Shown here in pieces: positions 128 through 21,621 of a stretch of 38,686 nt of DNA. The position numbers and the translations under genes are program-made. The stretch covers positions 1 to 38,686 of the forward strand of contig SVUC01000006.1 in NCBI GenBank assembly GCA_015063455.1, written 5' to 3'. The DNA is from Oscillospiraceae bacterium. GTDB lineage: Bacteria > Bacillota > Clostridia > Oscillospirales > CAG-272. Positions within the stretch are counted from its first letter, which is position 1. Every line of letters begins with the position of its first letter. The notes beneath the pieces are model-generated. The model saw only the letters and a program-made list of their open reading frames with translations. It searched no databases and was not told the origin of the DNA.

Positions 128-158
128 GAGGATAACATTTCGTTATCCTCTTTTTCTT
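128..158 (+). terminator. Intrinsic terminator after the 5S rRNA
   Basis: Perfect 9-bp stem GAGGATAAC-atttc-GTTATCCTC followed by tttttctttt. Confidence 0.9.
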
Positions 159-160
159 TT

Positions 161-267
161 CTCTGACGCTATGAAGATACTTGGCTGACGACTTTCGCGA
201 TACGATCGCTGAAAAATAGGTATTCGCCAACACCTGAGGATAACATCTCGTTATCCTCTTTTCTTTT
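161..267 (+). repeat. 5S-derived tandem unit 1, with its own terminator hairpin (236-258)
   Basis: 'gaagatacttggctg' and 'aaaataggtattcgccaacacc' match the 5S 3' half. The middle is replaced by 'acgactttcgcgatacgatcgctg'. Ends in GAGGATAAC-atctc-GTTATCCTC-tttt. Confidence 0.9.
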
Positions 268-375
268 CTCTGACGCTATGAAGATACTTGGCTGACGACT
301 TTCGCGATACGATCGCTGAAAAATAGGTATTCGTCAACACCTGAGGATAACATTATGTTATCCTCTTTTTCTTTT
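268..375 (+). repeat. 5S-derived tandem unit 2, with its own terminator hairpin (343-365)
   Basis: Near-identical to unit 1. Differences are gcc to gtc, terminator loop attat, and one extra T in the T-tract. Confidence 0.9.
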
Positions 376-481
376 CTCTGACGCTATGAAGATACTTGGC
401 TGACGACTTTCGCGATACGATCGCTGGAAAATAGGTATTCGCCAACACCTGAGGATAACATCTCGTTATCCTCTTTTCTTT
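376..481 (+). repeat. 5S-derived tandem unit 3, with its own terminator hairpin (451-473)
   Basis: Near-identical to units 1 and 2; one A to G change in 'cgctggaaaata'. Confidence 0.9.
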
Positions 482-517: not shown

Positions 518-546
518 TTGATATATTAACAGAAATATGTTATCAT
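518..546 (+). promoter_or_regulatory. Putative sigma-A promoter for the heparinase-like gene
   Basis: TTGATA - 17 nt - TATCAT upstream of the CDS at 599; gtggagg RBS just before the ATG. Confidence 0.6.
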
Positions 547-598: not shown

Positions 599-2590
599 AT
601 GGGTAGACAGGAACAACTTTTTAGAATTGCTCATGCTGTAACAGATGATGATGCTGTTTCAGTTAAATATACAGAGTACCTTGAGATGCTTTTTGATGCT
701 GTTGATCCTAAGCGAGTTAGTGGTGATTTTCTAAATGCTATTGCTGCCGATGATTACAGTACGGCGGTACTTTTGCTTGCAGCTTACTATAGAGGAAAGC
801 CTGATATCAAGATTCCGTCTATTTCATCGCTCGGTACGTATAATGTTGAGACGGCAGATTTAACTGCACGAGGCATTATGAAAGTTGTAAATGTTGAGTG
901 GTCTTTTCCAGACGGGGAAGTTGACTTTCTATTCGATCCTACGGAAATTAAAGGACCGAGAAATAATGAATGGGTTTGGCAATTTAACCGTAACTCGTAC
1001 TGGGTCAATATGGCTCGCACATACACTGCGACTGCGGACGAAAAATACGCAGTCGCATTTCAGAAACAACTTCTTAAATGGATAGCTCAAACATATATTC
1101 CTGAAAATTGGAATTCACGAGGTAGCACATGGCGAACAATTGAATGTGGTCTTCGCCTTTCAAATTATTGGAGTGTAGCATTTGACGCATTCAAAAAATC
1201 GAATTCTGTGCACGATGTCACTCTTCTATTGATGGTTGCATCAATGTACCATCAGTCAAAACATCTTATCTCTCATCCGACAAAAGGTAATTGGCTGATG
1301 ATGGAAATGAACGGCGTTTTTACATTCTCTGTTATTTTCAACGAAATGATTTATGCGGAATCTAATCGCAGACTTGCCGCAGAGTATCTCCTGAAGGCGC
1401 TAAAACAGCAAACTCTCCCTGACGGAATGCACAATGAACTTACTCCCGACTATCAGAGAGTCGTTTTTGACTGCGCGTGTAACTTTTATGAAATTGCTGT
1501 TAATTACGGATTTGAAAGTGATATTTCTGGTCAATTCGTTGAGCTAATGCGAAAGACAGTCGATACTGCTATCATGCTTTCCACTCCTGCTTTCACCCAG
1601 CCGAGAACAAATGAAACATCTACAACAAAAACAACTTTGTTTACGGGACGAGCAGAAAAATTGCTTGGAAAACGACCTGAATATTCTTTTGTGAATACTA
1701 AGCGTCTTGAAGGAAATCCGCCTATGTGTGAGACTGCATCTGTTTTTCTTGAGTACGCCGGATTTGCTGTTATGCGTTCTGATTGGGGACCTGACGCTGC
1801 ATATATATGCTTTGACGTAGGACCGCTTGGAATGGCTCATATCCATCAAGATAAGCTCAATATTAATCTCTACAAGGGTGGCGAGGAGCTTATATATGAT
1901 GATGGAGGCGGAGAATACGAAATATCTCCTGCGCGGGTATACTCAAAGTCGGGATACAGTCACAATATACTTCTCGTTGACGGAATTGCACAGCGTAGAG
2001 AAGTTCCACTTCAATCCGACGAGCCTATTGATGCAGACTGGATCACAAATTCGGAGTTTGACTACGCCTCCGCAGTATATGATGAGACATACGGTGAAGA
2101 GTTTAGCAGACCTGCGGTATGGAAAAGGGAGATCAGATTCTGCAAACCCGATTTTTTCTGCGTTGCAGACACAATAAGCTCGTCTGACGGTAAAGCTCAT
2201 GATTACGAGATACTTTTCCACCTTGATACAACGAAAGTGAATTTGCTGTCCGACTTCCAAAACGGCGTTATTTCAGATTACGGAAGAAAGTACGATGTGG
2301 CTATTATACCGCTTGATGACGACAGTGCAGATGTGGAGCTGAAAACAGTATCTGCAGTTACCGAGCCACAGTTCCAAGGATGGTTTAACGGACGTAATGA
2401 TACAAGGCTTCATGAGGCGATAACAGTCTCCAGGGAAGTAAAGAACGCGAAGAATTACCGTTTTGTCACCATTCTTTTCCCGATCACATCAAACGGTGAA
2501 CTGCCTGTGATTAAAAAAGAGGACAATAATGTCACGGTTTTCTTTAACTGCAAGGAACACACCATCGACCTCGATAAACTTAATAAGTAA
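599..2590 (+). CDS. Heparinase II/III-like family protein (putative polysaccharide lyase)
   Basis: 663-aa ORF with RBS. Segments such as 'AHIHQDKLNINLYKGGEELIYDDGGGEY' and 'YSHNILLVDG' resemble heparinase II/III-like proteins. No obvious signal peptide. Confidence 0.8.
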   Translation: MGRQEQLFRIAHAVTDDDAVSVKYTEYLEMLFDAVDPKRVSGDFLNAIAADDYSTAVLLLAAYYRGKPDIKIPSISSLGTYNVETADLTARGIMKVVNVEWSFPDGEVDFLFDPTEIKGPRNNEWVWQFNRNSYWVNMARTYTATADEKYAVAFQKQLLKWIAQTYIPENWNSRGSTWRTIECGLRLSNYWSVAFDAFKKSNSVHDVTLLLMVASMYHQSKHLISHPTKGNWLMMEMNGVFTFSVIFNEMIYAESNRRLAAEYLLKALKQQTLPDGMHNELTPDYQRVVFDCACNFYEIAVNYGFESDISGQFVELMRKTVDTAIMLSTPAFTQPRTNETSTTKTTLFTGRAEKLLGKRPEYSFVNTKRLEGNPPMCETASVFLEYAGFAVMRSDWGPDAAYICFDVGPLGMAHIHQDKLNINLYKGGEELIYDDGGGEYEISPARVYSKSGYSHNILLVDGIAQRREVPLQSDEPIDADWITNSEFDYASAVYDETYGEEFSRPAVWKREIRFCKPDFFCVADTISSSDGKAHDYEILFHLDTTKVNLLSDFQNGVISDYGRKYDVAIIPLDDDSADVELKTVSAVTEPQFQGWFNGRNDTRLHEAITVSREVKNAKNYRFVTILFPITSNGELPVIKKEDNNVTVFFNCKEHTIDLDKLNK

Positions 2591-21240: not shown

Positions 21241-21242
21241 TA

Positions 21243-21324
21243 TGCGGAAAACGGGACTTGAACCCGTACGGTGTGAACCACACGCCCCTCAAACGTGCGC
21301 GTCTGCCAGTTCCGCCACTTCCGC
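21243..21324 (-). tRNA. tRNA-Leu(GAG)
   Basis: Class II tRNA GCGGAAG...; anticodon stem CACGT/GCGTG, loop TTGAGGG. Confidence 0.94.
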
Positions 21325-21353
21325 ATGTGACAACTTGTGCTGTCAACGTTCAT

Positions 21354-21454: not shown

Positions 21455-21490
21455 TAAAAAAAGAACGAAGCTTGTGCTTCGCTCTTTTTA
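21455..21490 (-). terminator. Terminator between the two tRNA-Leu genes
   Basis: Minus strand AAGAGCGAAGC-acaa-GCTTCGTTCTT-TTTTT. Confidence 0.88.
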
Positions 21491-21572
21491 TGCGGAAAAC
21501 GGGACTTGAACCCGTACGGTGTGAACCACACGCCCCTCAAACGTGCGCGTCTGCCAGTTCCGCCACTTCCGC
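21491..21572 (-). tRNA. tRNA-Leu(GAG), identical second gene
   Basis: The 82-nt sequence is identical to 21243-21324. Confidence 0.94.
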
Positions 21573-21621
21573 ATAGCCATATAAGCATTCAACCGCTGAC
21601 AGTTTTCTGTCAACGGTTGAT

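Follow-up and report, generated by a model that had tools for sequence, protein, structure and literature searches.

In Peptococcaceae and Pseudoalteromonadaceae, rRNA operons have been described that carry remnants of 5S rRNA genes at their distal ends (Stepanov & Fox 2021, RNA 27:133, PMC7812874). These remnants comprise a 5S-like core that carries an insertion and lacks one or both ends, and they occur in multiple copies behind a normal 5S gene, with a terminator before each. No relevant publication on bacterial small RNAs derived from 5S was found in a literature search. The locus analyzed here lies at the beginning of a contig of 38,686 nucleotides (the window) from a metagenome-derived Oscillospiraceae genome assembly that is 81% complete and spread over 154 contigs. 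At this locus, an intact 5S gene is followed by an array spanning positions 161-484 and made up of three tandem units (161-267, 268-375 and 376-484) of 107-109 nt, spaced by 107 and 108 nt (Table 1). An earlier note, made from the sequence alone, had reported three tandem units of about 107 nt at this place, and both its description and its coordinates proved right.

Table 1. Features of the 5S gene, the unit array and the adjoining gene in the window.
Feature	Position	Strand	Evidence
Intact 5S rRNA gene, closing an rRNA operon that is truncated by the contig end	7..123	+	Rfam RF00001, 92.2 bits
5S gene terminator: GAGGATAAC-atttc-GTTATCCTC, then T tract	128..150	+	terminator scan
Unit 1 body: 3' part of 5S whose apical hairpin is swapped (insert hairpin at about 193-214)	161..235	+	
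Unit 1 terminator	236..258	+	terminator scan
Unit 2 body, with C to T at 334	268..342	+	
Unit 2 terminator	343..365	+	terminator scan
Unit 3 body	376..450	+	
Unit 3 terminator, array end	451..473	+	terminator scan
Promoter-like site TTGATA-17-TATCAT, before the next gene	518..546	+	1 found vs 1.9 in shuffles
Next gene, co-directional: heparinase II/III-like protein	599..2590	+	

Each unit runs from 5S sequence of the loop A/helix V side (CTCTG..GAAGATACTTGGCTG) through a new apex into the 5S 3' strand AAAATAGGTATTCGCCAACACC and on to a terminator. The retained strands, which include both loop-E-side strands of 5S, are 81% (left) and 92-100% (right) identical to the genome's own 5S gene, and the units contain nothing of the 5' half of 5S, that is, of the part before window position 64. 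Both points, as well as the replacement of the native apex by an insert hairpin, agree with what the earlier note had read from the sequence: ACGACTTTCGCGATACGATCGCTG stands where 5S has GCGACGGCCCGG, with a net gain of 12 nt per unit. The insert sequence was found nowhere else in the same genome, which hence provides no origin for it. The RF00001 threshold was reached in the window only by the 5S gene itself; the unit array stays below the gathering threshold, and no 5S-type Rfam match was obtained in positions 124-600 up to E = 1. Matches of the units to Rfam DapZ (20-24 bits, against a cut-off of 56) run over the terminator and were taken as chance.

Intrinsic-terminator-like hairpins followed by a T tract were identified at four sites, versus 0.5 expected in shuffles, and the terminators of the units share their stem with the terminator that follows the 5S gene, bearing out the earlier description of a 5S-like terminator per unit. 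No recognisable promoter was found inside the units, and the only promoter-like site of the region is no commoner than chance. Since the units lack a promoter and each of them lies behind a terminator, they could be transcribed only by polymerases passing the preceding terminators.

The earlier note had proposed a comparison with the 3' flanks of other rRNA operons in the same genome. A second contig end (C109), outside what its reader could see, begins inside a unit, so that the tail of this unit is followed by a complete one (at least two more), with different sequence downstream. At a third 5S end (C63) there are no units, and tRNA-Asn and tRNA-Lys genes lie directly behind the 5S gene. Because contig ends fall in repeats, the copy numbers of the unit are approximate. 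Among units 1-3, 5 of 98 columns vary, 3 of them in the terminator loop, and the T tract varies in length; the units can be told apart by their own substitutions. When the four complete units are compared, variable columns make up 3 of 5 in the terminator loop versus 4 of 93 in the rest (Fisher p 0.002, for few sites in recently amplified copies), and none occurs in the terminator stem. This uneven variation gives slight evidence that the terminator may be what matters in the units.

Without the terminator, the unit bodies are shuffle-like in folding stability (z = -0.71, -0.80 and -0.18 versus dinucleotide shuffles); the whole array, terminators included, reaches z = -5.8, and the insert hairpin alone, at z = -1.9, is modestly more stable than its shuffles. 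The best predicted fold of the unit is not 5S-like, with UUGGC, part of the apical arm in 5S, pairing with the GCCAA of the lost helix I, and a unit fold with the 5S-like helix V pairing (CUAU/AUAG) is predicted to be about 6 kcal/mol worse. The earlier note was correct in that the units differ little and that the terminator changes fall in the loop or the T tract. Its reading of the gcc to gtc change (334) as one that keeps pairing is weaker than stated, as units 1 and 3 share a predicted fold from which that of unit 2 departs. The fold predictions do not support a constrained 5S-like RNA, and no relative with the unit that would allow a covariation test was found in the genomes searched.

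Searches of 24 congeneric genomes, of a family sample of about 395 genomes and of an order sample of about 394 did not detect the unit. A covariance model built from the units, a check that the earlier note had suggested, retrieved from the 25 genomes of the genus the units themselves, then the 5S genes of the same genome (51.8 bits), then the 5S genes of congeners, and nothing else. Searches of plasmid, phage and viral collections returned either nothing or ordinary 5S matches, none of which spanned more than 25% of the query. The best 5S matches among named plasmid records were Pusillibacter and Vescimonas, which suggests for the source genome a clostridial lineage close to Oscillospiraceae. 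A weak match at the order level (G749, E = 1.1e-4) was discounted, as it extends over nothing but the terminator portion of the query. When 84,980 species genomes were scanned for the pattern of a 5S 3' part with a longer apex, a single match was returned, in a context that is not 5S-like. In the family, tandem arrangements of complete 5S genes are common and occur in several genera. A strict scan for simple terminators mostly found zero or one at the 5S ends of other relatives, suggesting that a stack is not generally needed.

In the sequences taken from behind 5S genes across genus, family and order, one congener (G004) was alone, besides the source genome, in showing a significant 5S-like fragment. 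Behind the 5S gene of G004 (C28), two units combine 5S-like pieces (GGTCGTGCCGAAGA-ACTTAAGTG ... AGTATTCGC) with a terminator and a pair of new hairpins (GAGATTT..AAATCTC and GAGTGTCACC..GTGACACTC), and three more units with different terminators are present on a second contig (C11). The insert, larger and with two hairpins, is unrelated to that of the window units, and several of the units end in terminators of differing sequence. A like construction is thus present twice in one genus with different material, and terminators persist despite sequence differences. It is conceivable, though a long shot, that the rRNA operon ends of this genus repeatedly build arrays from 5S fragments and newly gained hairpins, which would yield short 5S-mimic RNAs or meter read-through from the operon, so that unrelated arrays would serve one purpose in different species.

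Several side observations were made at these and related operon ends. The two-hairpin module of the congener (GAGATTTCC..GGAAATCTC / GAGTGTCACC..GTGACACTC) amounts to five repeats at two loci (L103 50-412, on G004:C11, and L029 1740-2015), with differing terminators behind. In three other genomes (G002, G009 and G001; L017, L023, L024 and L025), 5S genes carry an extra hairpin on the helix III side (e.g. GGGAGATACTTCGGTAACTCC), and in G009 and G001 this hairpin-bearing 5S coexists with a 5S of normal length at another place in the genome. The extra hairpins look like expansion segments of the type reported in PMC7812874. Between a 5S terminator and tRNA-Asn (L016 135-272, on G001:C59) lies an imperfect direct repeat of 46 nt (80%) that contains a hairpin (GATTTAG..CTAAATC). 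Behind another rRNA operon (L026 366-416, on G013:C4), a second copy of the adjacent tRNA-Asn gene has partly degenerated (88%), a further instance of tandem decay at such an end. Further along the window, on the minus strand, two identical tRNA-Leu(GAG) genes (21242-21325 and 21490-21573) lie 248 bases apart.

In our assessment, the units are very probably truncated, tandemly amplified pseudogene copies of the 5S 3' part with its terminator, in which the terminator is the only likely active part and the RNA body as such is probably functionless. That their sequence originates from 5S and its terminator is apparent from the direct alignment of the unit strands and terminators with both. The pseudogene reading is further based on the units that precede different downstream sequence at the second locus, on an insert found nowhere else in the genome, on shuffle-like bodies within a promoterless array that has an excess of terminators, on the invariant terminator stem with its variable loop, on the analogous arrays of the congener and on the published remnants. 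We infer the following order of events. A segment comprising part of the 5S gene and its terminator (about 64-160), without the 5' half, would have been duplicated, would then have gained the apical insertion and would have been multiplied by unequal recombination, the resulting units being spread or homogenised between at least two rRNA operon ends. Polymerases leaking past the first terminator would meet three more, shielding the co-directional downstream gene at 599, and the effect of the array would be at most passive backup termination. Two points count against the pseudogene reading: a recent functional amplification would also give near-identical units, and two congeners retain such arrays, at two loci each.

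The earlier note had offered recent amplification, a stacked terminator cassette, a structured small RNA under constraint and a ribosomal-protein decoy as explanations, and the first two fit the data. A selected stack, in which serial terminators end a strongly transcribed rRNA operon and the 5S remnant acts as their carrier, would refine the pseudogene reading rather than exclude it; we hold it to be possible rather than probable. It agrees with four serial terminators of invariant stem ahead of a co-directional gene, with the retention of terminators in the congener's units although their sequences differ, and with the unit-less operon end, which continues into tRNA genes; the strict scan, with zero or one simple terminator at most 5S ends of relatives, speaks against it, and the few variable sites say little about constraint. 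That each unit instead yields a 5S-derived small RNA or a decoy stabilised by the terminator hairpin is very unlikely, even though hairpin and terminator occur in every unit, the insert hairpin modestly exceeds its shuffles in stability and both loop-E-side strands are kept. The shuffle-like bodies, the predicted refolding by one substitution in unit 2, the position of promoterless units behind terminators and the absence of the unit from the other species searched all run counter to a small RNA. Ribosomal proteins uL5 and uL18 bind a part of 5S that the units lack and, as the bL25 gene was not detected in the 81%-complete genome, a decoy has no evident partner. An origin of the repeat number or order in the metagenome assembler appears extremely unlikely: contigs do start inside repeats, and the first 127 bases of C57 and C63 are exactly the same, as is typical of k-mer overlap, yet the units carry their own substitutions, unique sequence lies behind them at two loci and another genome holds an analogous array, limiting the uncertainty to copy number.

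Among known systems, the units resemble the remnants of PMC7812874 in their high similarity to 5S, the missing end, and the multiple copies 3' of a normal 5S gene with a terminator before each. They differ in family and in an insert that has its own sequence and is small, whereas the published insertions are large, and no expanded full-length 5S gene bearing their insert was found in their own genome. Expanded 5S rRNAs, with expansions in helix III, loop C and helix IV, likewise have a hairpin inserted in 5S-derived sequence, on the helix IV side in the units, but they are full-length genes, whereas the units, having no 5' half, cannot form helices I-III. With tandem 5S genes the units share head-to-tail 5S sequence at the end of an rRNA operon, those genes being complete copies and the units partial ones. 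The array, which gives no pointer to a new regulatory RNA, is therefore best described as a fresh, probably inert example of the published 5S-remnant class. This little-known class, with its insertions at rRNA operon ends, is now extended to another clostridial family, and the finding that one genus has two arrays whose inserts are unrelated bears on the origin and spread of 5S expansion segments.
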